Positions 23,565-36,493 of a stretch of 64,000 nucleotides of DNA are shown one piece after another; position 1 is the stretch's first letter, and the number at the start of each line of letters is the position of its first letter. Source of the DNA: Luteimonas sp. S4-F44 (lineage in GTDB: Bacteria > Pseudomonadota > Gammaproteobacteria > Xanthomonadales > Xanthomonadaceae); assembly GCF_022637415.1 (NCBI RefSeq), contig NZ_CP093340.1:868001-932000 (forward strand), written 5' to 3'. The position numbers were made by a program, and so were the translations under genes. The notes under the pieces were generated by a model that saw nothing but the letters and a program-made list of their open reading frames with translations, was not told the origin of the DNA and ran no database searches.

Positions 23565-24836
23565 CTACGCGCCGGCGCGCAGCTCGGCGAGCAACTGCTG
23601 GGCACGGTCCTGGCGGACGTGGCCGTCGGCCACCAGCCGGGCGGCCAGCGCTTCGACTTCGTGTTCGGCGGCGCCTGCGGCGACGGCGACGTTGCGCGCG
23701 TGCAGCGACATGTGGCCGCGCTGGATGCCTTCGGTCGCCAGCGCGCGCAGCGCGGCCGTGTTCTGCGCCAGCCCCACGGCGGCGGTGATCTCGGCCAACT
23801 GGTTGGCGCTGCGGACGCCCAGCAGCTTCACCGCCGCCTGTGCGGTGGGATGGGTCCGGGTTGCGCCGCCGACCAGGCCCAGAGCGAGCGGCAGTTCGAG
23901 GCTGCCGACCAGGTGGCCGTCGGCGTCCTTCTCGAAGTGCGACAGCGACGTGTAGCGACCGTCGCGGCAGGCGTGGCAATGGGCACCGGCCTCGATCGCG
24001 CGAGTGTCGTTGCCGGTCGCCAGCACGACTGCGGAAATGCCGTTCATGATGCCCTTGTTGTGGGTCGCCGCGCGGTAGGGATCGGCGGCGGCGAAGCGGT
24101 ACGCATCGACGATCCCGTCGACCACGGCCTCGCCACCCAGCTTGTCGGCATCGAACACCGCGCGCACCCGCACCAGGCGCAGGTCGGCCTTATTGCTCAG
24201 GATGCGCAGCAGGCTGCGTCCGCGCGCGATCGCCGCGATCCGCGGCGCCAGCGCCTCGGCCATGGTATTGACCGCATTGGCGCCCATGGCGTCGCGCACG
24301 TCGACCTGCAGATGCAGTACGACGGCGCGGAAATCCGTCGATTCGACCAGCCGCACGTCGATGTCGCGTGCGCCGCCGCCGAGTTCGACCAGCAACGGAT
24401 CCTGCGCGTTGGCCAGTGCGAGCAGTTCGTCGCGGGCCTCGAGCAGGCGCAGTCTCGCGGCCTGGGGATCGGCGACATCGAGCACCTGCACCTGGGCGAT
24501 CATGACCGGCGCCATGCTGGAGGTGTGGAACCCGCCGCGCTCGCGAGCCACCAGAGCGGCATTGCTCGCCGCCGCGACCACCGAGGGCTCCTCGGTCGCC
24601 ATCGGCACCAGATGGTCGCGGCCGTCGATCAGGAAATTGGCCGCGACGCCCAACGGGATCGCGATGGTGCCGATGGCGTTCTCAATCATGCGGTCGGCGA
24701 TCGATGCCATGCCGGCAGCGGTGTGCCGCAACGCGTGCAGGTGCTCGGCGGGCAGGCCGCTGACCTCGACGATCTTGCGGAAGCGGCTGTCGGGGTCGAG
24801 CTTGTAGAAACCGGGGATGCGGCTGCTGGCGTTCAT
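23565..24836 (-). CDS. mvaA: Class II (degradative, NAD-type) HMG-CoA reductase
   Basis: A 423-residue enzyme closest in pattern to Pseudomonas mevalonii MvaA. The catalytic set is all present: E83 (TEEPSVVAAAS), K261 (THNKGIMNGI), D277 (TGNDTRAIEAG) and H375 (GHMSLHARN). ENAIGTIAIPLGVAANF is the CoA-site signature. Class II enzymes work in mevalonate catabolism: mevalonate + CoA + 2 NAD+ to HMG-CoA. Xanthomonads make isoprenoids by the MEP route, so a degradative role is likely. CCAGGACCGCC precedes the ATG. It is the third gene of an operon after a CoA-transferase and an enoyl-CoA hydratase. Confidence 0.93.
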   Translation of the reverse strand: MNASSRIPGFYKLDPDSRFRKIVEVSGLPAEHLHALRHTAAGMASIADRMIENAIGTIAIPLGVAANFLIDGRDHLVPMATEEPSVVAAASNAALVARERGGFHTSSMAPVMIAQVQVLDVADPQAARLRLLEARDELLALANAQDPLLVELGGGARDIDVRLVESTDFRAVVLHLQVDVRDAMGANAVNTMAEALAPRIAAIARGRSLLRILSNKADLRLVRVRAVFDADKLGGEAVVDGIVDAYRFAAADPYRAATHNKGIMNGISAVVLATGNDTRAIEAGAHCHACRDGRYTSLSHFEKDADGHLVGSLELPLALGLVGGATRTHPTAQAAVKLLGVRSANQLAEITAAVGLAQNTAALRALATEGIQRGHMSLHARNVAVAAGAAEHEVEALAARLVADGHVRQDRAQQLLAELRAGA

Positions 24837-24935
24837 GGCGGTCCTGGAGACGAAGGGCGTGGAGATCGGATGGCCCGGCAGCGCTGGCGCGGGCATACCG
24901 GACGTGGTGGCGTCGGGGGGGCGCAGCGGCCCGGA

Positions 24936-25700
24936 TCAGTCGAAGACCGGAGTCTGCTTCTTCGCGAACGCAGCCAGGCCGCGCCGGGCATCGGCGCTGG
25001 TGAAGGCACGCTGGCCCAGTCGCGCTTCTTCGGCGAAGGCCTCGGCTTCGGGCAGGTCGACCAGCCGCTGGACCGACTCCTTGATCACCGCCAGCGCGCC
25101 GGGGCTGAGCGCTTTGATCCGCTCGGCCAGCGCCAGCGTCTGCGGCATCAGGTCGGCGGCCGGCACGACGCGATTGATCAGTCCCTTGGCCAACAGCTCG
25201 TGGGCGCTGAAGCCGTTGGCGGTGAGCAGCAGTTCCATCGCGTGCGCATAGGGAATCTGCCGAACCAGCCGCACCAGGGTGCCGCCGGCCGGTACGATGC
25301 CCAGCGAGGGCTCGGGCAGCGCGAACTTGGCGTGCTCGGCCGCGATGCGGATGTCGGTGCCCAGCATGATCTCGAAGCCGCCGCCCAGGCACAGTCCGTT
25401 GATCGCGCACAGCACCGGCTTGTAGAGCCGCAGGTTCTTGAGGTGGGCGTCGTCCCATTGCGAGATATCGAACTGGTCCTCCATCAACGCGGGGATCGAC
25501 TCGCCGAGGTCGGCCCCGACGCAGAACGCGCGCTGGCCGCTGGCGGTCAGGATCACCACGCGCACGCGGGAGTCGTCGCGGGCGGCGACGAACGCCTCGC
25601 CCAGCGCCTGATACATCGCCAGGGTCAGCGCGTTGAGTTTTTCGGGCCGGTCGAACCGGATCATCGCGATGCCGTCCGACACCTCGTATGCAATGGCCAT
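24936..25700 (-). CDS. Enoyl-CoA hydratase/isomerase (crotonase family)
   Basis: A 254-residue crotonase. Both catalytic glutamates of true hydratases are kept, E110 (GGGFEIMLG) and E130 (LPEPSLGIVPAGG), 20 residues apart as in rat crotonase. The oxyanion-hole segment is FCVGADLGE. The acyl substrate is not readable from sequence. Lying between an HMG-CoA reductase and a CoA-transferase, candidates are hydration of a branched enoyl-CoA such as anhydromevalonyl-CoA or 3-methylglutaconyl-CoA. AGGAGA lies eight bases before the ATG. Confidence 0.9.
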   Translation of the reverse strand: MAIAYEVSDGIAMIRFDRPEKLNALTLAMYQALGEAFVAARDDSRVRVVILTASGQRAFCVGADLGESIPALMEDQFDISQWDDAHLKNLRLYKPVLCAINGLCLGGGFEIMLGTDIRIAAEHAKFALPEPSLGIVPAGGTLVRLVRQIPYAHAMELLLTANGFSAHELLAKGLINRVVPAADLMPQTLALAERIKALSPGALAVIKESVQRLVDLPEAEAFAEEARLGQRAFTSADARRGLAAFAKKQTPVFD

Positions 25701-35316: not shown

Positions 35317-35563
35317 GTCCTGGCCTGCTGCGGGAGCGAGCTCCGAGCCTAGCCGCGCGCCGGCGCCGTGGACATGCCGATCTTGCCCGCGGCTTATCCG
35401 AAACAGCCCGGACCGGCCCGGACGTCTTGCCCTCGCACGACGGGGCTGCATCAATGGTCGAGTTCGCCAGCATGCGAGGCGAGCGTTCTGGAACGGGGGC
35501 GGCGCAGTGGGTCGATCGACCACCGCCGGTGGCGAGTGCGGGATCAGCAGACAGGAGCGCGAC

Positions 35564-36493
35564 ATGGCGGGGATATGCAGGGTGGGTTGGCGCTACGGCG
35601 CGGCACTGCGAGGCGCGATGGTCGTCGTGGCGTTGTGCCTGTACAGCCTGCAGGCCTGGGCCCGCCCGGCACCCCGTGAGGCGGTGCGGCCGCAGGCGAC
35701 GGGCTACACAATGCCGGCGACCGAGGTTTGGGAGCTCGCCGCCCACAGCGGCGAGGTGTACCGGATTTTCGTGTCCTACCCCGCCGGCAAGGAGGACGAG
35801 TCGCCCGAGGACGGCTATCCGGTGCTGTACGTGCTCGATGGCAACGCCTACTTCGGCGCGTTCGCGCAGGCGCGCTGGGTGCAGGATGATCTGCCGGTCG
35901 GCAAGTCCATCGTCGTCGGCGTCGGCTATCCGGGCGACGCGGCCTGGGACGTGCGCCGGCTCAAGGACTTCACCGCGCCGTTGCTCGATCCGCCGCCGCG
36001 GCAATGGCGCGCGCTGGCGCAGTACGAAAGCGGCGCGCGCCGGCAGTTCCTGGACTTTCTGACCGGCAAACTGCGCGAGGAAATCGCCCGTCGCCATCGT
36101 GTCGATCCCGATCGCCAGTCCCTGTTCGGCCACTCGCTGGGCGGGCTGTTCGCGCTTTACGCGCTCTACGAACGGCCCGGCGCGTTCCACTCGATCGTCG
36201 CCGCCAGCCCGTCGATGGAATGGAATGCGCAGGGCATCCTCGAGGACGAGCGCGCGTTCACCGCGCGTCTGGCGAGCGGCGCGATTGCCGGCACCAGCCG
36301 CTTGATGGTCGTGGTCGGCGATCGCGACACCGACGACGATCCGGAGCCGGCCCGGGCACTCGTCGATCGGTTGGACCGACTGTCCGGCCAGGGCCTGCGC
36401 GTCCGCCTGCATCGCTACCCGGACGAGGTGCACGTCAGCGTGCCGGCTCGTGCGGTGACCGACGTCCTGCGGTTCGCGTTCGAGATCCGCTGA
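35564..36493 (+). CDS. Fes/IroE-like esterase (putative siderophore esterase)
   Basis: A 309-residue alpha/beta hydrolase of the esterase-D/Fes group (PF00756). The nucleophile elbow is GHSLGG (S191), an acid residue lies in VVGDRDTDD, and the C-terminal His is in DEVHVSV. An N-terminal hydrophobic segment (about residues 12-33, ending WARPAP) predicts export or a membrane anchor, as in IroE, which cleaves catecholate siderophore esters in the periplasm. It is divergent from the ArgE-MFS pair. AGGAG lies six bases before the ATG. Confidence 0.83.
   Translation: MAGICRVGWRYGAALRGAMVVVALCLYSLQAWARPAPREAVRPQATGYTMPATEVWELAAHSGEVYRIFVSYPAGKEDESPEDGYPVLYVLDGNAYFGAFAQARWVQDDLPVGKSIVVGVGYPGDAAWDVRRLKDFTAPLLDPPPRQWRALAQYESGARRQFLDFLTGKLREEIARRHRVDPDRQSLFGHSLGGLFALYALYERPGAFHSIVAASPSMEWNAQGILEDERAFTARLASGAIAGTSRLMVVVGDRDTDDDPEPARALVDRLDRLSGQGLRVRLHRYPDEVHVSVPARAVTDVLRFAFEIR

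Follow-up and report, generated by a model that had tools for sequence, protein, structure and literature searches.

The fusarinines and coprogens of fungi count among the main soil siderophores of the hydroxamate type, and the fungal anhydromevalonyl group is found in fusarinines, triacetylfusarinine C (TAFC) and coprogen. In the literature that we searched, the breakdown of fusarinines and coprogens by bacteria has little genetic basis. Here, we analyzed a 64,000-nucleotide stretch of the Luteimonas sp. S4-F44 genome (the window; C1:868001–932000 of a 3.69-Mb single-contig genome) and describe a gene block at window positions 23565–41265, in which siderophore-related genes stand beside a family III CoA-transferase, an enoyl-CoA hydratase family protein of the crotonase fold (ECH) and a class II, degradative-type 3-hydroxy-3-methylglutaryl-CoA (HMG-CoA) reductase (HMGR). 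The block may be a xenosiderophore uptake-and-breakdown block joined to a carbon-recovery module, and we put the probability that the complete chain, starting from an anhydromevalonyl siderophore, operates in this Luteimonas at roughly 0.45. The trio of CoA-transferase, hydratase and HMGR by itself probably forms a module leading from anhydromevalonate to HMG-CoA. If the complete chain holds, the module would mark bacteria that eat fungal siderophores, would connect the theft of iron with the recovery of carbon, and would assign a function to a rare pair of CoA-transferase and hydratase that always stands beside HMGR.

Several described systems resemble parts of this block. Mevalonate catabolism combines a class II HMGR with HMG-CoA lyase, encoded by mvaA and mvaB in Pseudomonas mevalonii. 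As in that system, the window HMGR exceeds the TIGR00532 cut-off, an HMG-CoA lyase relative is encoded in the genome and no mevalonate-making genes were found there; unlike the mvaAB locus, the lyase gene is not beside HMGR, and a CoA-transferase and a hydratase are present that are missing from the plain-mevalonate control loci described below. In the CaiB/CaiD carnitine cycle, a family III CoA-transferase and a hydratase hydrate an enoic acid at the CoA level, and the CoA is passed to the next substrate. The window likewise has a family III CoA-transferase adjoining a crotonase-family hydratase, although both proteins are distant from their counterparts (133.3 bits against a cut-off of 413 for L-carnitine CoA-transferase, CaiB, and 154.4 against 500 for crotonobetainyl-CoA hydratase) and their product would go to HMGR. 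Fungal siderophore biosynthesis through SidI, SidH and SidF uses mevalonyl-CoA and anhydromevalonyl-CoA, the same intermediates as proposed here, and SidH (7oeq) and the window ECH are both crotonases; the window pathway would run in the opposite direction, and none of the fungal ligase or acyltransferase was seen in the block. The esterases of the window and of the alphaproteobacterial genome G558 match EstB and the TAFC esterase, BES, PfeE and IroE over their length or core, whereas the identity of the window esterase to each of them is low, the range of 35–40% being reached only among bacterial relatives. Finally, according to excerpts of two reports (PMC11800396, PMC12364333), desferrioxamine B and ferrichrome A (Pseudomonas FC-1) are hydroxamate siderophores used as food via amide hydrolysis. 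The route proposed for the window would likewise consume a hydroxamate siderophore through amide hydrolysis; the excerpts treat other acyl groups and describe neither the cleavage of esters nor a route for anhydromevalonyl groups. Among titles and opening lines of abstracts in the open-licence literature, no account of bacterial anhydromevalonate breakdown was found, so prior publication is possible.

An earlier note, made from the letters of the window alone, had proposed a breakdown pathway of this kind. In the form that we favor, a TonB-dependent receptor would import an ester-type hydroxamate siderophore of the fusarinine, TAFC or coprogen kind, an exported IroE/EstB-like esterase would cleave its ester bonds to give monomers, and a major facilitator superfamily (MFS) carrier would take these inward across the inner membrane. 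An M20 amidohydrolase, an amidase, or both, would split the amide or hydroxamate bonds, yielding (hydroxy)ornithine and anhydromevalonate (5-hydroxy-3-methylpent-2-enoate). The CoA-transferase would move CoA from mevalonyl-CoA to anhydromevalonate and ECH would hydrate anhydromevalonyl-CoA to mevalonyl-CoA, a CaiB/CaiD-like cycle in which no ATP is spent per turn; HMGR, working in the degradative direction, would convert mevalonate, CoA and 2 NAD+ to HMG-CoA, which an HMG-CoA lyase encoded elsewhere in the genome would cleave. The substrate, the order and direction of the reactions and the location of the proteins are proposals; the observations concern gene content, protein families, conserved gene order and co-occurrence.

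The CoA-transferase, hydratase and HMGR genes form a recurrent trio

All three genes lie on the minus strand at one end of the block: HMGR at 23565–24896 (TIGR00532, 439.1 bits; cut-off 259.95), ECH at 24936–25700 (PF00378, 205.6 bits) and the CoA-transferase at 25729–26955 (PF02515, 402.8 bits). HMGR is the sole PF00368 match in the genome, in which no HMG-CoA synthase was matched and no mevalonate kinase exceeded its cut-off (best 31.1 bits against 163.05). A biosynthetic HMGR was rejected for this genome on these grounds; the enzyme appears from the gene complement to be catabolic, with the NAD-oxidative direction proposed. In two other genomes of the same family, G114 and G049, HMGR adjoins genes resembling, by eye, mevalonate-pathway kinases and a decarboxylase. 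The HMG-CoA lyase relative, 54% to the lyase of Brevibacterium, is encoded outside the block at C1:1867670–1868536.

Among 80 HMGR loci in named genomes, a CoA-transferase lay within reach in nine. Seven of these also had ECH (Luteimonas marina, an Aquamicrobium metagenome-assembled genome, Conexibacter arvalis, Xanthobacter tagetidis, Streptomyces sp. A108, Brevibacterium sp. 239c and Sciscionella sediminilitoris), and the other two, from Pseudomonas species, were without it. Searching for the CoA-transferase only, at E ≤ 1e-120, returned 5 of 398 genomes of the phylum, 6 of 397 of the order of G558 and 11 of 297 of its family, giving 17 distinct genomes including the window. All 17 had HMGR and a hydratase in the same ~20-kb locus, the hydratase being ECH in 16 and, in one (G486), a MaoC-type pair like that of the two Pseudomonas loci. 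Altogether, 28 trio loci were compared, of which HMGR searches supplied 12 and CoA-transferase searches 16 plus the window; HMGR was present in 28, ECH in 25, a MaoC-type pair in three and HMG-CoA lyase in 20. This association of CoA-transferase, hydratase and HMGR holds generally, and its rarity gives it meaning.

Since HMGR, whose catabolic substrate is mevalonate, is the constant neighbor of the CoA-transferase and hydratase, the simplest joint reading is that this pair would make mevalonate from anhydromevalonate. HMGR is also a steadier partner than HMG-CoA lyase, as would be expected if the product of the hydratase is the substrate of HMGR. In the three loci without ECH, its place is taken by a FAS1_DH_region (MaoC-like) protein and a small neighbor, and because this MaoC-type pair is unrelated to the ECH that it replaces, the hydration step appears to be what is kept. 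These loci, L118 (G486:C40:166000–185900), L070 and L084, carry HMGR, HMG-CoA lyase and a CoA-transferase 56–57% to that of the window, and their small hydratase partner has no Pfam match.

On an HMGR tree of 53 rows, from which L010 (a copy of the Luteimonas marina locus) and the long-branched L096 were left out, the trio label needs seven changes, at least six of them forced by well-supported branches. The CoA-transferases of G558 and G1206 pair (99/97) while their HMGRs split between different clades, which suggests that the pairing persisted through an exchange of partners. The trio association thus appears, from these trees, to have been made or remade several times. Another view is that the locus serves plain mevalonate breakdown beside an unrelated siderophore locus, with the CoA-transferase and ECH doing an unrelated job. 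Loci that combine HMGR with HMG-CoA lyase and transport of the TctA type are indeed common without a CoA-transferase, as in the 26 control loci, and the halves of the block are separable; however, every CoA-transferase found at this similarity stood beside HMGR (17/17) and with a hydratase (17/17), and we consider a plain mevalonate locus very unlikely here.

The earlier note had described the catalytic residues that it checked as intact. In alignments, the residues that we take to be catalytic are invariant: E110 and E130 of ECH in 25 of 25 relatives from trio loci, D180 of the CoA-transferase in 28 of 28 trio loci, and E103, K281, D297 and H395 of HMGR in 28 of 28 module loci. Like its score with L-carnitine CoA-transferase, the scores of the CoA-transferase with the mesaconate (326.6 bits against 700) and glutarate (280.9 against 750) equivalogs are under cut-off, and it is closer to these dicarboxylate enzymes than to L-carnitine CoA-transferase. 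The CoA-transferase and ECH could instead act on a dicarboxylic acid, for example 3-methylglutaconate, which is the acyl group of ferrichrome A, and give HMG-CoA directly, with HMGR separately feeding mevalonate into the HMG-CoA pool. The nearest named CoA-transferases do use dicarboxylates, including the succinate-hydroxymethylglutarate CoA-transferase 9br6 (220.9 bits), and the excerpt of PMC12364333 records that bacteria degrade ferrichrome A through amide hydrolysis. Nevertheless, a dicarboxylate substrate gives no reason for HMGR to adjoin the CoA-transferase in all 17 genomes and would make the lyase a more necessary partner than HMGR, the opposite of the counts (28/28 for HMGR, 20/28 for the lyase). 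The methylglutaconyl-CoA hydratase AUH (1hzd) is, moreover, a weak relative of ECH (94.6 bits). We therefore regard 3-methylglutaconate as an improbable substrate, and retain anhydromevalonate as the probable one.

The trio is joined to a conserved, putative siderophore block in Lysobacteraceae

HMGR is present in 8 of 297 genomes of the family of the window, and in four of the eight the CoA-transferase and ECH lie beside it: the window genome, G208 (Luteimonas marina), G276 and G063. All four keep the rest of the block, namely an Lrp regulator, an AraC regulator, a PAF-AH-like hydrolase, the TonB receptor, the MFS transporter, the M20 enzyme, the esterase, an amino acid permease, an amidase and an FMN_bind_2 fusion gene. 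Gene order is conserved among them and the outer flanks differ, which, with the 17 of 17 genomes above, indicates more than a chance arrangement. The earlier note had taken a lack of co-occurrence of the two halves elsewhere as refuting its proposal; they co-occur in three other Lysobacteraceae genomes, and the check did not refute it. The seven genes that it named (HMGR, ECH, CoA-transferase, TonB receptor, MFS transporter, ArgE-like M20 enzyme and esterase) are all present with profile matches. Its limits of 23565–36493 truncate the block, the conserved part of which reaches 41265, and its statement that every enzyme would be used once does not describe the block, of which it omitted six genes: those for Lrp, AraC and the PAF-AH-like protein between the halves, and for the permease, the amidase and the FMN fusion to the right.

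Other genomes carry the siderophore half without the trio. G202 has the genes for Lrp, AraC, the PAF-AH-like protein, the TonB receptor, MFS, M20, the esterase and the permease, with the amidase and FMN gene recognized by eye; G001 has MFS, TonB, the PAF-AH-like hydrolase, AraC and Lrp; and G030 has pieces of the block. None of these three is among the HMGR genomes of the family. A search with the receptor found 52 of 297 family genomes at E ≤ 1e-150, and relatives of at least 76% occur in G276, G202, G208, G063 and G001, with a fragment in G030, while none of the copies of at most 65% in G029, G294, G174 and G018 lies within such a block. Thus, the halves are linked in four genomes and separable in others.

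A second TonB receptor, 57–62% similar, is widespread in the family (for example, G276:C1:3703899–3706034), and second places also occur in G208. It has other surroundings in G294, G174 and G018 and, in G294 and G018, stands beside a PepSY-type gene that looks iron-regulated by eye.

Receptor, esterase and ferric hydroxamate uptake genes

The receptor gene (30571–32784, minus strand) encodes an FhuE/FpvA/FauA-like TonB-dependent siderophore receptor (TIGR01783, 280.4 bits; cut-off 223.5), with FhuE as its nearest solved structure (6e4v, 309 bits). It scores under the cut-offs of the FhuE model PRK10003 (400.7 bits against 666) and the FauA model (375.9 bits). The esterase gene (35564–36493, plus strand; PF00756, 73.7 bits) encodes an IroE/EstB-like siderophore esterase, likely exported as judged by eye. 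Its solved relatives are BES (2qm0, 123.7 bits), EstB of A. nidulans (6gun, 101.7), the TAFC esterase of A. fumigatus (6gud, 95.9), ferric enterobactin esterase (6gi0, 74.3) and IroE (2gzr, 49.8), so that both fungal enzymes outscore ferric enterobactin esterase. By these scores, the window esterase falls in the siderophore-esterase group that includes the fungal fusarinine and TAFC esterases.

Outside Lysobacteraceae, ferric hydroxamate uptake genes lie near the trio in alphaproteobacteria of three genera. In G558, FhuB (727.7 bits, over cut-off) comes after the trio and HMG-CoA lyase, together with genes resembling FhuD and FhuC, an esterase of the IroE/EstB-like kind and an FhuA/FoxA-type receptor. 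G1225 carries an FhuD-FhuB-FhuC-receptor-esterase cluster ~20 kb further along the trio contig, and G1270 has FhuB and an FhuA-like receptor at least 10 kb from the trio, the esterase not being among them. FhuB is separated from the CoA-transferase by 1.8 kb in G558, 10.0 kb in G1270 and 25.1 kb in G1225. Three cases within 25.2 kb compare with 0.184 expected (P = 0.0009; 20 FhuB in 17 alphaproteobacterial trio genomes), with a distance limit set after seeing the data. FhuB (E ≤ 1e-60) occurs in 13 of 22 trio genomes searched and is unlinked to the trio in those other than these three; in G1204, a receptor-FhuCDB-esterase cluster like that of G558 lies on a contig other than that of the trio.

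Trio loci were compared with 26 HMGR-only controls, made up of 24 of the 71 loci without a CoA-transferase, hand-picked as bacterial and mostly long, together with L093 and L096; none of the archaeal, Chloroflexi or short loci was included, and L049 and L054 are near-copies. With seeds that came from the trio loci and with loci that are not independent, siderophore-type esterases were found in 5 of 28 trio loci versus 0 of 26 controls, and iron-uptake seeds in 7 of 28 versus 1 of 26.

Two further candidates for siderophore support were set aside. Of the 11 trio genomes in family f51, 6 have the window-type esterase, versus 21 of 151 drawn family genomes, two of the 21 being trio genomes (Fisher P ~0.002, taking 19/146–149); this genome-wide enrichment was rejected as evidence for fusarinine, as the neighborhoods are mostly other TonB/FecCD siderophore clusters, one of them beside a gene that looks NRPS-like by eye. 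The TonB/FecCD cluster of G705 was likewise rejected, being closer to heme and B12 systems, all under cut-off.

Amide hydrolases and flavoproteins accompany the trio

Between the receptor and the esterase lie genes for an MFS transporter (32840–34147, minus strand; PF07690, 184.5 bits), which is under the cut-off of every NCBIfam model among the matches listed, and an M20 amidohydrolase of the acetylornithine deacetylase (ArgE) type (open reading frame 34144–35565, minus strand, with the true start probably downstream, near 35350). The latter exceeds the cut-offs of both TIGR01892 (390.2 bits; 297.7) and PRK07522 (459 bits; 412). To the right of the esterase, on the plus strand, follow an amino acid permease (36687–38159; PF13520, 154.2 bits), an amidase-signature hydrolase (38184–39623; PF01425, 273.6 bits) and a fusion of an FMN_bind_2 (PaiB-like) domain with an Abhydrolase_3 esterase domain (39658–41265; PF04299, 120.4 bits; PF07859, 186.0 bits). 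The block as a whole encodes at least four proteins of the alpha/beta-hydrolase or esterase type and two of the amide-hydrolase type.

With seeds and loci subject to the same bias as above, amide hydrolases were found in 16 of 28 trio loci versus 2 of 26 HMGR-only controls, and FMN domains in 10 of 28 versus 1 of 26. In six alphaproteobacterial loci (in G558, G1204, G1103, G1276, G1225 and G1318), the trio is accompanied by a TIGR01891-type M20 enzyme and a binding protein of the Dpp type; the M20 enzyme of G558 scores 191.3 bits with TIGR01891 (cut-off 153.75), with DoeB2 next and under cut-off. A flavoprotein of the PNPOx-reductase-2Fe2S type occurs in four trio loci, including that of Aquamicrobium. 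HyuA/HyuB-type genes for an ATP-dependent amide hydrolase or carboxylase are present in all four actinobacterial trio loci (L014, L019, L024 and L012). The Brevibacterium HyuA is closest to caprolactamase (474.4 bits, under cut-off), and the Brevibacterium trio locus also has an FMN_bind_2 gene.

These amide hydrolases and flavoproteins, non-orthologous across lineages, suit an N-acyl source of the acid; that its nitrogen-bearing part is N-hydroxylated is speculation. We tentatively propose that bacteria across Pseudomonadota and Actinomycetota have a pathway in which the anhydromevalonyl moiety of hydroxamate siderophores from fungi would serve as a carbon source, with importers, esterases, amide hydrolases and FMN flavoproteins differing by lineage. 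Its CoA-transferase/hydratase cycle, with ECH or, convergently, the MaoC-type pair as hydratase, would convert anhydromevalonate to mevalonate, which a degradative HMGR would pass on to HMG-CoA.

Weighing the proposed siderophore source

Several observations weigh against the proposed chain, the dicarboxylate kinship of the CoA-transferase and the origin of the seeds in the trio-versus-control counts among them. At 107.0 bits, SidH (7oeq) ranks only 43 of 219 solved crotonases as a relative of ECH, which shows no special kinship and does not support ECH as an ortholog of the fungal enzyme. Among solved structures, the esterase is closest to BES of Bacillus and not to a fungal protein; because BES may be a bacillibactin esterase, the match places the window enzyme among siderophore esterases, with fusarinine as a possible substrate. 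ArgE-type M20 enzymes act on N2-acyl groups, whereas the proposal needs cleavage of an N5-hydroxamate. As given in the excerpt of PMC6503915, coprogen carries trans-anhydromevalonyl and FhuE contacts the hydroxamate through Arg117, Arg142 and Trp275. These align with Gln, Gly and Trp in the window receptor, with a numbering offset that we worked out, so that two of three contacts are changed; with a score under the PRK10003 cut-off as well, the receptor was rejected as an FhuE ortholog. The best Fur-like box in the block matches 11 of 19 consensus positions, and shuffled windows give 11–13; iron regulation through a Fur box was set aside, as no site was better than the shuffles, although a diverged box may be present. 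Iron-uptake seed matches were missing within ~20 kb in 21 of the 28 trio loci. Of the seven seed-positive loci, four are the one Lysobacteraceae block and that of Conexibacter is a single weak match, and the receptor of G705 is closer to heme receptors (under cut-off). Finally, several trio loci have importers of the Rbs, Tct, TRAP, Dpp or Peripla_BP_6 type, and because several carry Rbs-, Tct-, TRAP- or Peripla_BP_6-type importers, the module need not be siderophore-fed everywhere.

These importers, which most trio loci outside Lysobacteraceae have, raise the alternative that the trio is fed by anhydromevalonate in free or lactone form or by some other acyl compound, and that in Luteimonas it reached the siderophore block by one transfer and then stayed. 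The block without the trio in G202 fits such a history. The four Lysobacteraceae trio copies form a single clade (100/100), so the adjacency of the trio to the siderophore block may be one event. Archaeal isoprenoid synthesis, moreover, yields trans-anhydromevalonate phosphate, according to the excerpt of PMC10040528. Set against this, the joined block order has been held at four places with different outer neighbors, the ferric hydroxamate uptake genes near the trio in three alphaproteobacterial genera exceed expectation, and the amide hydrolases that recur by the trio point to an N-acyl source. We judge the one-transfer alternative unlikely.

For the siderophore-fed chain, the outcome is mixed, and the pathway of the earlier note is partly supported. 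In its favor, the halves co-occur, the trio is near ferric hydroxamate genes in three alphaproteobacteria and the esterase falls in the siderophore-esterase group; against it, the halves are separable (G202), most trio loci elsewhere have no siderophore gene nearby and the receptor is without two of the three FhuE contacts. The idea proved stronger than the evidence first given for it, and its gene list and coordinates needed mending.

Other genes of the block and neighboring observations

Two regulators and a hydrolase separate the halves of the block. The Lrp/AsnC-family regulator (26990–~27484, start approximate, minus strand; PF13412, PF13404 and PF01037 in frame) is kept in G208, G276, G063, G202 and G001. 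The AraC-family regulator (~28025–29101, start approximate, within an open reading frame of 27782–29101, plus strand; PF12833, 63.6 bits) has relatives of 71–80% within the block of six other genomes. Next to it, the PAF-AH-like alpha/beta hydrolase (~29145–30473, open reading frame 29103–30473, plus strand; PF03403, 47.8 bits, cut-off 20), with a likely signal peptide by eye, is also conserved within the block. At the right end, relatives of the permease (82–86%) are found in the block of G208, G063, G276 and G202, and those of the amidase (79–83%) and of the FMN_bind_2–Abhydrolase_3 fusion (79–84%) in G208, G276 and G063. Signal peptides and some neighbor identities were judged by eye, and genes were called with a simple in-house caller that miscalled some of them.

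Among the importers, L130, L133, L137, L138 and L117 have in common an unusual Rbs-like ABC operon, with a long (~705 aa) permease and a 380-aa companion beside ECH. In G276 (L100, G276:C1:3895000–3911000), the block stands beside an apparent leucine-degradation operon, recognized by eye, that includes an HMG-CoA lyase relative (54%) and lies ~23 kb from HMGR.

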